Assembly (NCBI RefSeq): GCF_003594885.1
Contig: NZ_QZEZ01000001.1
Location: 372,001 to 436,000 of the forward strand
Reading direction: 5' to 3'
Source: Vallicoccus soli
GTDB taxonomy: Bacteria; Actinomycetota; Actinomycetes; Motilibacterales; Motilibacteraceae
DNA length: 64,000 nt
Shown here: positions 1,985 to 52,114 of the stretch, piece after piece
How the letters are laid out: each line of letters starts with the position of its first letter
How positions within the stretch are numbered: position 1 is the first letter of the stretch
Translations under genes and position numbers: made by a program
The notes under the pieces: generated by a model
Told to the model about the DNA's origin: nothing
Databases searched by the model: none
What the model saw: only the letters and a program-made list of their open reading frames with translations

Positions 1985-2803
1985 GTGAGCACCCTCCCCG
2001 TCCCCGTGACCGAGGCCGGGCGCACCGCCCTGGCCGCGCTGGCCGCCGCCCCCGCGCAGGCGCTCGTCGCCTGCGACTACGACGGCACCCTGGCGCCCAT
2101 CGTCGACGACCCCGCGGCGGCGCGCGCCGACGCAGGAGTGGCCGGCGCCCTCGCCGACCTCGGGGCCGTCCTCGGCCGGGTCGCCGTCGTCACCGGGCGC
2201 CCCGCGGCCGTGGCCGTCGAGCTCGGCGGGCTCGCGGACGTCCCCGGGCTCGTCGTCCTGGGGCACTACGGCCTCGAGCGCTGGCACGGCGGCGAGCTGA
2301 GCGCGCCCGACCCCGCGCCGGGCGTCGTCGCGGCGCGGGCGGAGCTGCCCGGGCTGCTGGGCGGACTCGGTGCCGACGGCGCCCGCGTGGAGGACAAGCG
2401 CGCCGCCGTCGCGGTGCACACCCGCGGCGCCGCGGCGCCGCAGGAGCTGCTGGAGCGCCTGCGCGCCCCGCTCGGCGACCTCGCCGCCCGGCACGGCCTC
2501 GTCGTCGAGCCCGGCCGGCTCGTCCTCGAACTGCGCCCGCCGGGCGTGGACAAGGGCGCCGCGCTGCGCTCGCTCGTGGAGGCCCCGCCCTTCGACGGCC
2601 GCCCCTCCTGCGTCGTCTTCTGCGGCGACGACCTCGGCGACCTCCCCGCCTTCGACGCCGTCGACGCCCTGCGCGCCCAGGGCGTGCCCGGCCTGCTCGT
2701 CGCCAGCGGCTCCGACGAGGTGCGCGCGCTCGCCGAGCGCGCCGACCTCGTCGTCGACGGCCCCCCCGGCGTCCTGCAGGTCCTGCGCGCCCTCCTGCCC
2801 TGA
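1985..2803 (+). CDS. otsB: Trehalose-6-phosphate phosphatase
   Basis: This HAD-superfamily enzyme of 272 residues removes phosphate from trehalose 6-phosphate, the second step of the OtsAB route. The nucleophile motif DYDGTLAPI sits at residue 31, VVTGR is motif II, and CGDDLGDLPAF is the C-terminal Mg-binding motif; VEDKRAAVAVHTR is typical of OtsB. GTG at 1985 is the only plausible start in this frame after the upstream gene. The partner otsA lies at 4590-6056 on the other strand, separated by a repeat array and a LacI regulator. Confidence 0.93.
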   Translation: MSTLPVPVTEAGRTALAALAAAPAQALVACDYDGTLAPIVDDPAAARADAGVAGALADLGAVLGRVAVVTGRPAAVAVELGGLADVPGLVVLGHYGLERWHGGELSAPDPAPGVVAARAELPGLLGGLGADGARVEDKRAAVAVHTRGAAAPQELLERLRAPLGDLAARHGLVVEPGRLVLELRPPGVDKGAALRSLVEAPPFDGRPSCVVFCGDDLGDLPAFDAVDALRAQGVPGLLVASGSDEVRALAERADLVVDGPPGVLQVLRALLP

Positions 2804-2865
2804 CCCCTGCGCCCCCCGGGACTCGGGAGCCGCCATCCCCGCCTGGTCACCGCAGCGACCCGCTC

Positions 2866-3432
2866 GCCGCGATCGTGCGCGTACGGCGTCCCTGGCACCT
2901 GGGCACCGCCATCAGCGCATGATCGCCGCGGAGGGAGTCCGCCGCGATCATGCGCGGATGGCGGACCCCAGGCGCGGGAGCGGGTCGGGGAGCGGGCCGG
3001 ACCCGGTAGGGCCTGAGGGCGTCCCGCGCACCGCCCCACCCTCGGCCGCGATCATGCGCGTACGGCGGCCCCTGGCACCTGGCGGACCCCAGGCACGGAC
3101 GCGGGTCGGGGAGCGGGTCGGACCCGGCGGGGCCGGAGGGCGTCCCGCGCACCGCCCCGCCCTCGGCCGCGATCATGGGCGTACGGCGTTCCCTGGCGGC
3201 AGCTGGGCACCCGCCCTCAGCGCATGATCGCCGCAGGGGGTGCGCCGCGATCATGCGCGCATGGCGGGCCTTGGCGCGCGAGCGGGCCCGGGAGCCGGCG
3301 ATACCGTGACCGGCGGGATCGCAAAGGCGGTCCCCCGCACCCCTCAGCGCATGATCGCCGCAAGGGGTGCGCCGCGGTCATGCGCCGATGGTGGACTCCG
3401 ACTGCGCGCCGCCGTCAGCGCATGATCGCCGT
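2866..3432. repeat. REP-like array: 10 copies of a GCGCATGATCG-core element
   Basis: The 639-nt gap between otsB and the LacI gene holds no gene but ten copies of a 15-nt element with the core GCGCATGATCG. Forward copies (GCGCATGATCGCCGC) start at 2915, 3220, 3347 and 3418. Reverse copies (GCCGCGATCATGCGC, some with one change) start at 2866, 2941, 3045, 3166, 3244 and 3371. Three head-to-head pairs, 2915/2941, 3220/3244 and 3347/3371, form hairpins with 12-bp arms. The copies at 2866, 3045 and 3166 are followed by a shared GTACGGCG...CCTGG stretch. One further copy lies at 38235-38249. The layout resembles REP/BIME elements. Confidence 0.85.
2960..3201. repeat. 121-nt tandem duplication inside the repeat array
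   Basis: Bases 2960-3080 and 3081-3201 align in register as two diverged direct copies. Each runs from GGCGGACCCCAGG through GTCCCGCGCACCGCCCC to a reverse GATC-core element and GTACGGCG. Scattered substitutions without frame preservation argue against coding. Confidence 0.8.
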
Positions 3433-3442
3433 GGGGGGCGGG

Positions 3443-4474
3443 TCAGCGGCGGCGCTTGGTGCTGGCCCGGTGGACGACCTCGCCGGGGACGCGCTCGACG
3501 CGGACCCCGTCGTCCTCGGGGAGCGGGCCGAGGGCGAGGTCGGCGAGGCGGCGGCCGAGGTCGCGCAGCGGCAGGGCCACCGTGGTGAGGGCGGGGGTGG
3601 TCTCGCGGCCGACGGGGAGGTCGTCGAACCCGGCGAGGGCGACGTCCTGCGGCACCTTGAGCTTGCGCTCGCGCAGGGCTGCGAGGGCGCCGACGGCGAC
3701 GGTGTCGCTGACGGCGAGGACGCAGGAGCCGCGCAGGTCGACGGAGGCGGCGAGCTCGAGCGCGGCCTCGTACCCGCCCTCGCGGCTCAGCGCGCCGTTC
3801 ACGACCTCGCCGAGCCGGCTCTTGCGCCCGCCCGCCGTCCCGTCCTTGAAGCCCGCGACGCGGTCACGGGCGGTGACGAGCTCCTTGGGGCCGGCGAGGA
3901 CGTGGAAGCGCTCGAAGCCCTGCTCGACGAGGGAGGCGGCAAGCGCTTTCGCCGACGGCCGGTTCTCGAGGAGCAGCGTGTCGGTGCCCAGCGTCCGCTG
4001 CCCCAGGACCGCGACGCGCCCGCCGGCGAGCTCGAAACCCTCGACCTCGGCGGCGAGGCGCCGGCCGACGTCGCGGCCCGACGTGCGGCTGCCCGCGAGG
4101 ACCACGGCCCGGGCGCGGTGGTTGCGCATGGAGGACACGTGCTCGAGCTCGAGCTCCGGGTCGTGGCCGGTGCTCACCACGCTGACGAGCAGGCCCATCT
4201 CCCGCGCGACCTCGAGCACACCGGCCGCGACCTCGGCGTCCCACGGGTCCGTGATGTCGGGGACGACGAGGCCGACGAGGTCGGACGCGCCCCGGGCCAT
4301 CGCCTGGGCGGCGGGGTTGGGCCGGTAGCCGAGCTCGGCGGCCGCGGCGAGCACCTGTTCGCGCAGGACGGGCCCGACGGTGCGGACGCTGCCGTTGAGC
4401 ACCCGGGACGCGGTGGCGAGGGAGACGTCCGCGGCGCGCGCGACGTCCGCGAGGGTGACAGGACCTGAGGGCAC
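3443..4474 (-). CDS. LacI-family transcriptional regulator
   Basis: The product (343 residues from GTG 4474) has an N-terminal LacI helix-turn-helix (VTLADVARAADVSLATASRVLNG in two parts) with the hinge RPNPAAQAMARG. A periplasmic-binding-protein-like effector domain follows, ending with AGFDDLPVGRETTPALTTV. GTG 4474 is preferred over the longer GTG 4519 because a TACGGT -10-like box (4513-4508) lies inside the longer version and a GGAGAGG site precedes 4474. An AGCGCTTTC-type half-palindrome at 4579-4590 is a likely autoregulatory operator. It sits downstream of otsA on the same strand; the sugar sensed cannot be read. A solitary repeat copy (3418-3432) lies 10 nt beyond the stop codon. Confidence 0.88.
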   Translation of the reverse strand: MPSGPVTLADVARAADVSLATASRVLNGSVRTVGPVLREQVLAAAAELGYRPNPAAQAMARGASDLVGLVVPDITDPWDAEVAAGVLEVAREMGLLVSVVSTGHDPELELEHVSSMRNHRARAVVLAGSRTSGRDVGRRLAAEVEGFELAGGRVAVLGQRTLGTDTLLLENRPSAKALAASLVEQGFERFHVLAGPKELVTARDRVAGFKDGTAGGRKSRLGEVVNGALSREGGYEAALELAASVDLRGSCVLAVSDTVAVGALAALRERKLKVPQDVALAGFDDLPVGRETTPALTTVALPLRDLGRRLADLALGPLPEDDGVRVERVPGEVVHRASTKRRR

Positions 4475-4578
4475 GGGGGACCGCCTCTCCGACGTGTGGT
4501 CGCGCTCACCGTACTGCACCGGCGCCTCCCGGCACCGCCAGGACGCGGCTTTCCCGCTCCGCGTCCGGTCACTCCGGG

Positions 4579-38213: not shown

Positions 38214-38234
38214 GGGCGGACGCTAGCGCCCCGC

Positions 38235-38249
38235 GCGCATGATCGCCGC
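38235..38249. repeat. Solitary copy of the GCGCATGATCG-core repeat
   Basis: GCGCATGATCGCCGC is identical to the forward copies in the 2866-3432 array. It lies 11 nt from the stop codon of the helicase-associated gene, the same position and with a similar G-rich GGGTCA flank as the copy at 3418-3432 beside the LacI gene. Confidence 0.85.
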
Positions 38250-38260
38250 GGGGGAGCGGG

Positions 38261-45867: not shown

Positions 45868-48798
45868 GTGGCCGACCCGTTCGGCACCGCGGGCCTGCGC
45901 GAGCGCGTGCTCGCGGCCTGGTCCGCGTCCCCCGCCCGCCTGCGCGAGGACGCGAACGCCGAGGAGGACCTCGCGCTCGGCGGCTACCGGGACCGCCTCG
46001 TCGTCGAGCTCGCGCAGAACGCGGCCGACGCCGCGGCCCGGGCCGGCGTCCCCGGCCGACTGCTGCTGCGCCTCGACGGGAACCGGCTCGTCGCCGCCAA
46101 CACCGGCGCCCCCCTCGACGCCGCCGGCGTGCAGGGGCTCGCGACGTTGCGCGCCTCGGCCAAGGACGCCTCCGGCGCCAGCGTCGGGCGCTTCGGCGTC
46201 GGCTTCGCGGCGGTGCTCGCCGCCTCCGACGAGCCGGCCGTGGCCTCCCGGGCCACGGGCGGCGTGCGCTTCTCCAGGGCCCGCACCCGCGGGGCCGCCG
46301 GCGCCGAGCACGTGCCGGTGCTGCGCCTGCCCTGGCCCGCGGACGTCGCGGTGCCCCACGGCTACGACACGGTCGTCGACCTCCCGCTGCGCCCGGGGGC
46401 CGACCCCGGTCCGCTCCTCGACGCGGTCGGCGGCTGGCTGCTGCTCGTCCTGCCGGGCCTCGCCGAGGTGGCCGTCGAGCGGGACGGGCGCCGGCGGGTG
46501 CTGGCGGCGCGGCACGAGGGGCCGTACGCCCTGCTCGACGACGACGGCGCCACCACGCGCTGGCGGGTGCACCGCGCGTCCGGGCGGCTCGACCCGGCGC
46601 TGCTCGCGGACCGCCCGACCGAGGAGCGGGCGCGCCGGGACTGGTCGCTCGCCTGGGCGGTCGCGCTGGAGGGCGCGCAGCCCGTGGTGCCCCCGCCGGG
46701 GGTCGCGCCGGTCCTGCACGCGCCGACGCCCTCGGACGAGCCGCTCGGGCTGCCGGCGCTGCTCGTCGCGCCGTTCCCGCTGGACCCGTCGCGGCGCCAC
46801 GTCGCGCCGGGGCCGCTGGCCGACCACCTCGTGGAGCGGGCCGGGGCCGCGTACGGCGACCTGGCGCGCGCCCTCGCCGCGGACGGCGCCGACCCCGCGC
46901 CGCTGGTCCCGTCCCCGGCCGCCGTGCTCGGCGCGCTCGACACCGCCCTGCGCCGCGCGGTGCTGCGCCGGCTCGAGGACGTGCCGCTGCTGGCGTCGGC
47001 CGAGGACCCCGGGGCGCTCGTGGCGCCGTCCGCCGCCGTGGTGGTCGAGGGCGCCGGGCCCGACCTCGTGGCCGCCCTCGCCCCCGTGCTGGGCGGGCTG
47101 GTCCGCACGTCGTGGCCGCGCGCGGCGCTCGCGGCGGTGGGCGTGCGGCCGGTCGCGCTCGCCGACGTCGTCGACCAGCTCGCCGGCCTGCAGCGCCCGC
47201 CGGGGTGGTGGCACGACCTCTACGCCGCGCTGGCCGCCGGGGGAGCGCGCCCGGACGACCTCGGCGCCCTGCCGGTGCCCCTCGCCGACGGCCGCCTCGT
47301 GCGCGGCCCCGCCGGGACCCTGCTGCCCGACCCCGACGGCGCGCCCGCCGAGGCGCTGCGGGGCCTGCCGCTGCGGGTCGTCGACCCCGGCGCCGCCCAC
47401 CCCCTCCTCGAGCGGCTCGGCGCCCGGCGCGCGACGGTCGCCGCCGTGCTCGACGACCCGGCCCTCGCCGGGGCCCTGCGCGCCGCCGCCGACGACGGGG
47501 ACACCGGGCCGGGCGAGGCCGTGCTGGGCCTGCTCGCGGCCGACCCGTCGGCGGCGGGCCCCTGGCCCTGGACCGGGGAGCCGCTGCTGCCGGGCGAGGA
47601 CGGGCCTGCCCGCGCGGACGAGCTCGTCGTGCCCGGCAGCGCCGCGGACGGCCTGCTGACCGGGCTCGGGCGGGCGGCGGCGGGGCTCGTGGCGGCGTAC
47701 GGCGAGGACACGCTCGCCCGCGCCGGCGCGGTCACCGGCCTCGGCCTGCTCGCGCTGGAGGACGTGGAGCTCGGCGACGCCCTCGAGGACGCGGTGGGCG
47801 ACCCGGGGGTGGACGGCCTGCTCGACTGGGTGGACGACGCGCGCGACGCCGCCGGCGTCGCCGACGGCGACCTGCCGCCCCTCGTGCCCGGGCTGGTGCT
47901 CGTGCGCGACCTCGACCTCGTCGACCCGGCCCGCTGGGGCGGCGCGCTCGACCTGCTCGCCCGGCCGCCGCTGCGCGCCGCCGTGCTCGACCCGGTGCGG
48001 GTCGTGCTGCCCGGCGGGCGGGTGCGGGAGGTGCCCCCGTACGCCGCCTGGTGGGTCCGCGAGCACGCCCTCGTCGGGGGGCGGCCGACCGCGGCGCTGC
48101 GCCTCGCCGGCTCGGACCCGCTGCTCGAGGGCCTCTACGAGGACGTCCCCGCCGGCGCCGACGAGGAGCTGCTGAGGGCGGTCGGCGTACGGACCTCGCT
48201 GGCCGCCCTCCTCGCCGAACCGGGCGGGCCGGACGACCTGCTGCGCCGGGTCCTCGACGCTGACCTGACCGCCGCGCGGGTCCGGGCGCTGCACGCCGCC
48301 CTCGCCGCCGCCGGGGCGCGGGTCGAGGACCCGCCGGCGCGGGTGCGGGTGCCCGACGGCGACGGCAGCCGCGCCGTCGACGCCGACGACGTCGTCGTGG
48401 CGGACGGCCCGCAGTGGCTCCAGCTGCGGTGGGCGGTCCCGCCGCTGGCCGCGCCGCGGGCCGCCGCGCTCGCCGACGCCCTCGACGTCGACCTGTGCTC
48501 GGAGCGGCGCGAGGGGCGGGTGACCTCGACCGGGACCCCGGCGGACGTGCCCCCGGTCGTGGCGCGCGTGCTGCCCGGGGCGCCCGGGCGCTGGACCGCG
48601 CACGACGACCTCGAGGTCGACGGCGAGCCCGTGGACTGGTGGGTGGACGGCGCCGGGGTGCACGCCGCGACGACCGAGGGCCTGGCCGCCGGGCTCGCGT
48701 GGGCGGCCGCCGCCTGGCCGCGCCGGCACCTGGTCGCCGCGGCGCTCGCCGACCCGGCGCGCGCCGACGCGCTGCTCGCCGACGCCGCCTGGGACTGA
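45868..48798 (+). CDS. Sacsin/Hsp90-like GHKL ATPase protein
   Basis: The 976-residue protein has an N-terminal ATP-binding domain of the sacsin/Hsp90 type: LVVELAQNAADAAARAG (N box), ANTGAPLDAAGVQGLATLR (G1-like), VGRFGVGFAAVLAASD (G2). A very large region of low similarity follows (about 250-976) with repeated aspartate-rich ALLxxP segments and no known domain. Sacsin-type ATPases are poorly understood in bacteria. It is cotranscribed with DUF3027. A domain-of-unknown-function role in protein folding or signalling is a guess. Confidence 0.82.
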   Translation: MADPFGTAGLRERVLAAWSASPARLREDANAEEDLALGGYRDRLVVELAQNAADAAARAGVPGRLLLRLDGNRLVAANTGAPLDAAGVQGLATLRASAKDASGASVGRFGVGFAAVLAASDEPAVASRATGGVRFSRARTRGAAGAEHVPVLRLPWPADVAVPHGYDTVVDLPLRPGADPGPLLDAVGGWLLLVLPGLAEVAVERDGRRRVLAARHEGPYALLDDDGATTRWRVHRASGRLDPALLADRPTEERARRDWSLAWAVALEGAQPVVPPPGVAPVLHAPTPSDEPLGLPALLVAPFPLDPSRRHVAPGPLADHLVERAGAAYGDLARALAADGADPAPLVPSPAAVLGALDTALRRAVLRRLEDVPLLASAEDPGALVAPSAAVVVEGAGPDLVAALAPVLGGLVRTSWPRAALAAVGVRPVALADVVDQLAGLQRPPGWWHDLYAALAAGGARPDDLGALPVPLADGRLVRGPAGTLLPDPDGAPAEALRGLPLRVVDPGAAHPLLERLGARRATVAAVLDDPALAGALRAAADDGDTGPGEAVLGLLAADPSAAGPWPWTGEPLLPGEDGPARADELVVPGSAADGLLTGLGRAAAGLVAAYGEDTLARAGAVTGLGLLALEDVELGDALEDAVGDPGVDGLLDWVDDARDAAGVADGDLPPLVPGLVLVRDLDLVDPARWGGALDLLARPPLRAAVLDPVRVVLPGGRVREVPPYAAWWVREHALVGGRPTAALRLAGSDPLLEGLYEDVPAGADEELLRAVGVRTSLAALLAEPGGPDDLLRRVLDADLTAARVRALHAALAAAGARVEDPPARVRVPDGDGSRAVDADDVVVADGPQWLQLRWAVPPLAAPRAAALADALDVDLCSERREGRVTSTGTPADVPPVVARVLPGAPGRWTAHDDLEVDGEPVDWWVDGAGVHAATTEGLAAGLAWAAAAWPRRHLVAAALADPARADALLADAAWD

Positions 48799-50706: not shown

Positions 50707-50745
50707 CGGGTACGGCCCGGGCTCCCGGCAGGCGGGCGCGACCCA

Positions 50746-50851
50746 TGAGGGGCACCCTCAGGCGCTGATCGACCGTGAGGGGCACCCTCAGCAGACTCGA
50801 CTCTGCTGAGGGTGCCCCTCATCCGTCGTGGACGCCTCGGGGTGCCCCTCA
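50746..50851. repeat. Left cluster of TGAGGGTGCCCCTCA palindromes
   Basis: Four copies of a 15-nt near-palindrome: TGAGGGGCACCCTCA at 50746 and 50776, its reverse complement at 50807, and a degenerate copy (TCGGGGTGCCCCTCA) at 50837. Copies 50776 and 50807 plus the intervening GCAGA/TCTGC make a 46-nt hairpin (50776-50821) with perfect 20-bp arms and the loop CTCGAC. The same family recurs on the far side of the next gene. Confidence 0.9.
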
Positions 50852-50963
50852 CGGGTGTCGCTGCGTCCAGGTCCGCGTACGGGGCGCACCGTCCACAGGA
50901 CCGCCACGGCCGTCGTCCACAGCCCCGGAGCGCGCAGACCTCGATGCGCACGATGCTGCGCGC

Positions 50964-51926
50964 ATGCCTGCCGCACACCACGCGTACGTCCCCGCCGTCG
51001 CTGCGCTGCTCGCCTCGGGCCAGCACGTCGTGACCCGGTCCAGGCTGCTCGCGCTCGGCATGAGCTCCGACACGATCAGGCACCACGTCACCACCGCCGA
51101 CGACTGGCAGTGGCTCCTTCCGGGGACGTACCTGCTGCGCCGGGGGACGCCGACGTGGCACGAGCGGGCGACGGCCGCGCTCGCGTACGCCGGGCCGGGG
51201 GCCCTGCTCTCCGGCGGTGCCGCGGCGCACCTGCACGGCGCGGGGGACCGGCCCGAGGCGCTCCACGTGCTGGTGCCGCACGCTCGCCGCCGCAAGGACT
51301 GCCGCTTCGTCCGGGTCGAGCGCACGCGCCGGCTCCCGGACCCCGTCGACCGCTCCGGGCTCGCCGTCGCGCCCCTCGCGCGCGCCCTCGCCGACGCCTG
51401 CCGCGCGAGCACGGCGCCCAGGTCGACGCGGGCCCTCGTCGTGGCGGCCGTGCAGCGGGGGTGCCCGCTGGACGCGCTGCGGCGCGAGCTCGAGGAGGGC
51501 CCGATCAAGCACAGCGCCCTCCTGCGCTCGGTCCTCGAGGAGGTGGGCGCGGGGGTGCGCTCCATCGCGGAGGTGGACGCCCGGCGCCTGGTCCGGCGGG
51601 CACGCCTGCCCGAGCCGCTGTGGAACGCGGACCTGCTCGACCTGCAAGGCCGCTTCCTGGCCAGGCCCGACGGCTACTGGCCGGAGGTGGGCGTCGCCTG
51701 GCAGATCGACTCGCGCGAGTGGCACACGAGCGCCGAGGACTGGGAGCGGACGCTGCGCCGGCACGCCGCGCTCGCGAGCCGTGGCGTGCTGGTGCTGCAC
51801 ACCCTGCCGAGCCAGGTGCGCACGGACGAGGCTGCGGTGCTCGCCGAGCTCGCCCGCACGCTCGAGAGCGGGCGCGGCAGGCCCGTGCCGGCGGTCGTGG
51901 TCGCCGGGCTGCAGAGCGCGGGCTGA
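50964..51926 (+). CDS. AbiEi-like N-terminal plus DUF559 (Vsr/PD-(D/E)XK-like) protein
   Basis: The 320-residue protein has an N-terminal winged-helix region of the AbiEi antitoxin type (VTRSRLLALGMSSDTIRHHV, WLLPGTYLLRRGTPTWHERA, GALLSGGAAAHLHGAG) and a C-terminal DUF559 domain like very-short-patch-repair endonucleases (RPDGYWPEVGVAWQIDSREW, then LRRHAALASRGVLVLHTLPS). The core PD-(D/E)XK acidic residues appear as D in RPDGYW and Q-I-D where an acidic-x-acidic is usual, so nuclease activity may be altered. ATG 50964 is preferred. Clusters of one palindrome flank it on both sides, and no toxin partner is present. Confidence 0.82.
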   Translation: MPAAHHAYVPAVAALLASGQHVVTRSRLLALGMSSDTIRHHVTTADDWQWLLPGTYLLRRGTPTWHERATAALAYAGPGALLSGGAAAHLHGAGDRPEALHVLVPHARRRKDCRFVRVERTRRLPDPVDRSGLAVAPLARALADACRASTAPRSTRALVVAAVQRGCPLDALRRELEEGPIKHSALLRSVLEEVGAGVRSIAEVDARRLVRRARLPEPLWNADLLDLQGRFLARPDGYWPEVGVAWQIDSREWHTSAEDWERTLRRHAALASRGVLVLHTLPSQVRTDEAAVLAELARTLESGRGRPVPAVVVAGLQSAG

Positions 51927-51976
51927 CGCCGGTCGGAGCGGCTGCCCGTACGAGCGCGGTGGCCTTGGGTGATGCA

Positions 51977-52114
51977 TGAGGGTGCCCCTCAGGCGGCCAC
52001 GACCCATGAGGGTGGCCCCGAGCAGAGTCGAGTCTGCTGAGGGTGCCCCTCAGGCGCGCACGCCGCCTGAGGGTGCCCCTCATGGGTCCACCGGGCGCCT
52101 GAGGGTGCCCCTCA
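51977..52114. repeat. Right cluster of TGAGGGTGCCCCTCA palindromes
   Basis: Five copies, at 51977, 52007 (degenerate, TGAGGGTGGCCCCGA), 52038, 52068 and 52100. Copies 52007 and 52038 with the GCAGA/TCTGC joint rebuild the same 46-nt composite unit as on the left flank (52007-52052), here with the loop GTCGAG and some left-arm mismatches. All five have the same orientation. Confidence 0.9.

Follow-up and report, generated by a model that had tools for sequence, protein, structure and literature searches.

The closest described systems are the REPtrons, in which REP or REPIN repeats are paired with a RAYT (TnpA-REP) enzyme of the HUH (Y1) type. REPs with RAYTs, as well as CGTC REPs without a known transposase, have been described, as have TIRtrons, in which long terminal inverted repeats enclose a RAYT gene (Di Nocera 2013, PMC3733652). 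Single-copy, vertically inherited RAYTs are discussed in PMC8049555.

The repeats considered here resemble the REPtron repeats in being 20-40 bp long, extragenic, of mixed orientation and present in 100-300 copies. They also favour gene ends and convergent gaps, bracket the enzyme gene, and are related where the enzymes are related. However, the enzyme is an AbiEi-like winged helix (wHTH) joined to a Vsr-type nuclease rather than an HUH transposase, and one repeat subtype forms strict 22-bp tandems. As in TIRtrons, inverted repeats enclose a single small gene, and some of these repeats belong to dispersed families, but the enzyme superfamily is different. EDxHD and Vsr-like homing endonucleases of the 3r3p type are similar in the nuclease domain (by profile, E 5e-4) and in the selfish-looking bracketing of the gene; they differ in that here no intron or intein was seen, the AbiEi-like wHTH is present, and the presumed target is a high-copy repeat. 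The AbiE type IV toxin-antitoxin systems share the AbiEi_4/AbiEi_1 N-terminal region, whereas the genes considered here have a C-terminal nuclease part, dispersed repeats and no AbiEii partner found at five loci of this genome. AbiEi of abortive-infection systems autoregulates via inverted repeats.

Our preferred reading, with a probability of roughly 0.6, is that the repeats belong to a REPtron-like system in which an AbiEi-Vsr-type nuclease, not an HUH transposase, spreads the repeats.

The array between otsB and lacI

The window, by which we mean the whole stretch of 64,000 nucleotides that was analysed, contains two convergent genes separated by a gap of 639 bp (2804-3442). The trehalose-phosphatase gene otsB (1985..2803, plus strand; TIGR00685 over cut-off) abuts the array with its end. 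The other side is formed by a gene for a LacI-family regulator (3443..4519, minus strand; NCBIfam LacI-family models below equivalog cut-offs), whose stop codon is at 3443. All genes were called with a codon-usage script of our own instead of a standard gene finder; the script calls no gene in the gap, in agreement with the sequence-only reading. A search of Rfam gave no relevant match.

The ten-copy array reported earlier between these genes is indeed present: the 12-mer GCGCATGATCGC occurs in ten copies with at most one mismatch, in mixed orientation, at 2869-3429. At up to two mismatches, the whole window contains 26 matches versus 15.4 expected. According to the weight matrix the array unit is 29 bp long with the core GCATGATCRCSGC, and the array consists of ten units and one degenerate unit (2830..2858, plus strand, score 13.0). 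The first complete unit (2861..2889, minus strand, score 20.2) belongs to subtype A and has one mismatch in the core. The next two, also of subtype A (2906..2934, plus strand, score 32.9, and 2936..2964, minus strand, score 30.1), lie within an inverted pair at 2895..2975 with arms of 38 nt, 87% complementary, and a loop of 5 nt. Two more inverted pairs are formed by 3211..3239 (plus strand, score 30.9) with 3239..3267 (minus strand, score 24.2), and by 3338..3366 (plus strand, score 24.4) with 3366..3394 (minus strand, score 18.4). The last unit (3409..3437, plus strand, score 29.3) ends 5 nt short of the lacI stop codon.

Compared with shuffled sequence, the first pair folds far better (z -10.8 and -9.7 on the two strands), and the other two moderately better (z -4.8 and -4.1 over 3210-3268; z -2.3 and -4.0 over 3341-3395). 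Thus, of the three hairpins with 12-bp arms proposed earlier, the hairpins themselves stand, but the strongest has the 38-nt arms given above. A conserved hairpin within a single unit was considered and rejected, as its GCG/CGC stem is broken by a common G-to-A variant without compensation and covariation is unsupported.

The longer shared unit noted around some copies corresponds to a tandem duplication of 118 nt on the plus strand at 2959..3197 (2959-3076 and 3080-3197, 91% identical, spacing 121). Each duplicate contains one repeat copy on the minus strand, at 3040..3068 (score 32.6) and 3161..3189 (score 24.8), and a third, partial version lies around 2869.

Distribution of the repeats in the genome

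The exact core of the GCATGATC family occurs 57 times in the genome (4.04 Mb, GC content about 77%), versus no occurrences of the reversed control pattern; with one mismatch the counts are 254 and 32. All but one of the exact copies (56/57) are intergenic. Both outcomes that would have spoken against a dispersed family, restriction to the array and position 38235 and placement within genes as often as between them, are thus ruled out. The sequence model finds 194 places, and in about 390 kb of DNA around copies and nuclease genes there are 195 copies in 54 clusters, nine of them inside called genes. Dispersed, non-autonomous REP-like clusters number roughly 55-100, the otsB/lacI array among them; they consist of short, high-copy and extragenic elements with inverted pairs. 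A solitary intergenic copy lies in the window at 38226..38254 (plus strand, score 29.1), in a 47-bp gap between two minus-strand genes.

The unit derived from the weight matrix is GCATGATCRCSGC(S)GGG, in two subtypes. Subtype A has CGCCAYC upstream of the core. Subtype B has GCCGGGGAG upstream and forms a strict 22-bp tandem (GCGCATGATCGCCGCCGGGGAG), with 105 copies in this register. Neither form of the consensus has the GTAG or CGTC end tag. One run of about 20 tandem 22-bp GCATGATC units (G000:C9, approximately 47855-48350; L062:3556-4052) is likely a variable-number tandem repeat, of use for strain typing.

Convergent gaps make up 29 of the 46 repeat-bearing gaps versus 12 of 161 repeat-free ones (Fisher test, 2e-14); as the sample was drawn around repeat copies, only the contrast is meaningful, not the rate. 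Arrays lie a median of 24 bp from a stop codon. Divergent gaps rarely hold repeats (2/58).

A second palindromic family, TGAGGG, forms hairpin arrays in the window at 50744..50856 and 51975..52114. It has 146 copies at up to one mismatch in this genome and 0-2 in nine other genomes. The genome therefore carries two dispersed families unrelated in sequence, as had been suggested.

Nuclease genes and their flanking repeats

Two loci of this genome encode sister proteins with an AbiEi-like wHTH and a Vsr/DUF559-like nuclease part. Subtype B units flank the intact gene at C2:137623-138648, in minus orientation to its left and plus orientation to its right. A second gene, at C1:1035823-1036750 and frameshifted near residue 198, is flanked by subtype A units with this same left-right polarity. 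In total the genome has seven matches to the nuclease family, and bracketing is described for six. The remaining four, more distant, are bracketed by unrelated inverted repeats: C7:212364, C2:224408, C2:446136, and the gene at 50964..51926 (plus strand) of the window, which lies between the TGAGGG arrays. The latter is an AbiEi-like wHTH joined to a Vsr/MTES_1575-like nuclease (AbiEi_1 E 7e-4 and MTES_1575 E 0.007, both under cut-offs; PADLOC AbiEi 5e-14). Hence the suggestion that each repeat family has a different partner gene, of DUF559 or RAYT type, survives in its first half: a DUF559/AbiEi-type gene lies between copies of each family.

Between the subtype A and B nucleases, identity is 56% in the N part and 65% in the C part, and the two are mutually closest among the copies of this genome compared. 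Their identity to the remaining ones, which have unrelated repeats, is about 39% or less. The chance of at least two of seven genes having repeats on both sides is 2e-4, a conservative estimate with 194 occupied gaps and an assumed number of about 3,500 genes. However, inverted arrays also enclose two ordinary genes (C5:99.4-100.3 kb and C3:69.8-70.9 kb), and thus bracketing in this genome alone is not decisive.

Among 57 family members, Pfam matches were obtained for AbiEi_4 (28), MTES_1575 (26), DUF559 (18) and AbiEi_1 (14). MTES_1575 has been described as a Vsr-fold domain (PMC3710099). In profile searches against PDB the nuclease part matches 3hrl (2e-5), the mobile intron protein 3r3p (5e-4) and Vsr (0.006), and its relatives there include a DUF559-like endonuclease. 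D230, E241, D243 and R259 are near-invariant. The C-terminal part is thus a predicted Vsr/DUF559-like nuclease, based on the profile match and the conserved acidic residues. An AlphaFold prediction from two sequences yielded an unusable model (pLDDT 35). No AbiEii toxin was found among ten neighbour genes at five nuclease loci of this genome; nine of the ten have Pfam matches, to housekeeping, transport or DUF families.

DUF559 alone was rejected as a marker: it gives one weak PF04480 match in the genome, and the wider AbiEi/MTES_1575 profile was required. DUF222-HNH genes were considered and rejected as repeat partners, since repeats occur in or near just three degraded copies. The apparently degraded DUF222-HNH (13E12-like) genes with repeats inside or adjoining are at L035:3214-4013, L041:4135-4737 and L056:4195-4906; two of the three copies are 94% identical to each other over about 300 bp.

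Several further observations concern individual loci. A membrane-protein-like gene (L102:2374-3357) and a NUDIX-like gene (L103:2281-3411) each lie between inverted subtype B arrays and are possible passengers. The nuclease gene G000:C2:224408-225259 (L106:2903-3766), with its own inverted repeats, splits a probable carotenoid operon, its neighbours being an amine-oxidase/desaturase-like gene and a phytoene-synthase gene. The region G000:C6:50000-55277 (L107) and the start of L101 comprise about 5 kb without a called gene, and 34-bp direct repeats occur near C6:51895.

Comparison of related genomes

Using a profile of four proteins of this genome, the nuclease family was found in 71 of 79 genomes searched, this one included. 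A scan of genome contigs with one nuclease protein had Nocardioides soli as its sole match. Together with a DUF3151 gene in this genome, a family of actinobacterial distribution, this match makes the high-GC host most probably an actinomycete. The flanks were compared by the best inverted match between the two 450-bp sequences on either side of a gene, for 45 nuclease genes (five loci of this genome and 40 more, one of those also from this genome) and 214 neighbouring genes from the same loci. Scores of at least 20 were obtained for 27 of the 45 nuclease genes versus one of the 214 neighbours (Mann-Whitney p 1.9e-19), and 18 nuclease genes scored lower; the tested loci are higher-scoring matches, and therefore the 60% need not hold family-wide. 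Direct matches between the flanks are likewise elevated, since many units are palindromic. Different genes have different flank units, many of them long, near-perfect palindromes. That nucleases of this family are associated with private palindromic repeats is well supported.

The search with the 12-mer GCGCATGATCGC missed the repeat family in relatives, which was uncovered with the core GCATGATCRCSG. Among the 79 genomes this core is expanded in G000 (this genome, 197 copies), G004 (269) and G033 (250), the next highest count being 46 and the control 0. Each of the three has a nuclease flanked by GCATGATCRCSG. Core density varies more than 20-fold between genomes, and those with a nuclease so flanked have density ranks 1, 2, 3, 4, 5, 6, 25 and 51 of 79 (p 1.5e-4). 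The nuclease of G053 has GCATGATC flanks without any enrichment of the family in that genome, and the count in G003 is close to background. A 35-row clade (SH-aLRT 93) of the 107-protein tree contains all nine GCATGATC-flanked nucleases, and a 14-row clade (SH-aLRT 99) six of them. The flank label requires five changes versus a minimum of seven in 300 shuffles; this is a quick tree with some near neighbours among its rows, and the two frames of the frameshifted C1:1035823 protein were placed side by side, unmended. The nuclease gene occupies the corresponding position in G004 and G003 (74% over 11 kb), and therefore vertical inheritance is possible while copy number differs.

Inverted copies of its own repeat lie on both sides of the nuclease gene, and wherever loci were compared, the repeat-gene-repeat stretch is what otherwise different neighbourhoods have in common. 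Two paralogues in G016 have about 1.5 kb in common, repeat-gene-repeat, and nothing beyond, and for the sister nucleases of G065 and G048 the bracketed stretch is the main part in common. The 22-bp unit CCACGAACCGTG bracketing the G048 nuclease has 74 copies in G048 and 0-3 in nine other genomes. The dispersed G048 arrays have the same polarity as those around the nuclease gene, and several appear to span from stop codon to stop codon. That dispersed arrays are internal deletions of a nuclease element was rejected: inspected by eye, the centres of the G048 arrays have no common sequence or obvious gene remnant. The unit of G016 L155/L156 occurs in 11-16 places in 400 kb versus 0-2 in a control genome. 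For three of the five G016 families and all four G065 families dispersal is not clearly separable from background.

Minus/plus GCATGATC pairs with a spacing of exactly 52 bp, resembling REPIN dyads, occur in two genera (G060: C2, C7, C21, C97, C219, C290; G075: C107).

Possible mechanism and alternatives

Binding, cutting, copying and the terminator effect, as we infer them, would proceed as follows. The cognate enzyme would consist of two parts: an N-terminal AbiEi-like winged helix for binding the 29-bp unit, and a C-terminal Vsr/DUF559-type nuclease for nicking or cutting it. Through repair or strand transfer, units would then be copied to new places, where they may multiply both in tandem, giving the 22-bp register of subtype B, and as inverted pairs. 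The copies that survive would mainly be those right after stop codons, most of all between two convergent genes; hairpins there may do no harm, or may serve as two-way transcript ends.

A classical RAYT/REP system would explain the size, extragenic placement, alternating orientation and hairpins of the repeats. However, no Y1 transposase (Y1_Tnp, PF01797) was found in this genome, a small part of which is missing from the assembly, or in 11 relatives, the E. coli control being positive; this also disposes of the RAYT half of the partner-gene suggestion. As the end tags are absent too, we regard such a system as extremely improbable. Another possibility is that the repeats are immobile binding sites of an AbiEi-like repressor or of a reader of self and non-self. 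The assignment of the N part to AbiEi by both PADLOC and Pfam is consistent with such a regulatory or defence role, as is the autoregulation of AbiEi via inverted repeats, but the lack of AbiEii among the ten neighbours at five loci, the position of the sites behind genes with few in divergent gaps, and the large differences in core density between genomes make it a poor candidate.

The main rival to a nuclease that spreads its repeats, somewhat less improbable than a regulatory role but still unlikely, is that the repeats came first and were spread or maintained otherwise, for instance as two-way terminators selected by the host, and that the nuclease, a parasite of the homing type, cuts pre-existing repeats and so inserts its gene there. 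The placement at gene ends and in convergent gaps agrees with this, as do the position of nuclease genes between outward arrays with the polarity of the dispersed G048 arrays, and the profile match to 3r3p. On the other hand, expansion follows the nuclease clade and not the host, with 8 copies in G002 versus 269 in G004 of the same genus, and no uninterrupted array matching a nuclease locus was identified. REPtron-like spread by the nuclease thus remains our preferred reading: cognate repeats flank the enzyme gene and the two co-vary, a REPtron trait seen here with another enzyme superfamily.

Significance

It seems slightly better than an even bet that REP-like systems of this kind are class-wide, with AbiEi-wHTH/Vsr-type nucleases each recognising and spreading a private palindromic repeat. 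They would then represent a second, non-homologous solution to the role of RAYTs. Among the open-access PMC papers to which the search was limited, none joins DUF559, AbiEi or MTES_1575 to REP-like repeats; the novelty of the link is thus provisional.

REP-like repeats without a RAYT had no candidate enzyme, and in actinobacteria there is now a named one, along with numerous naturally occurring repeat-enzyme pairs on which recognition can be tested. If the proposed relationship is true, it would assign a role to the common "DUF559/AbiEi" gene family, which databases file under phage defence, and would help to account for the intergenic repeat DNA of such genomes. The family may then also be a source of compact sequence-specific nucleases with readable targets.
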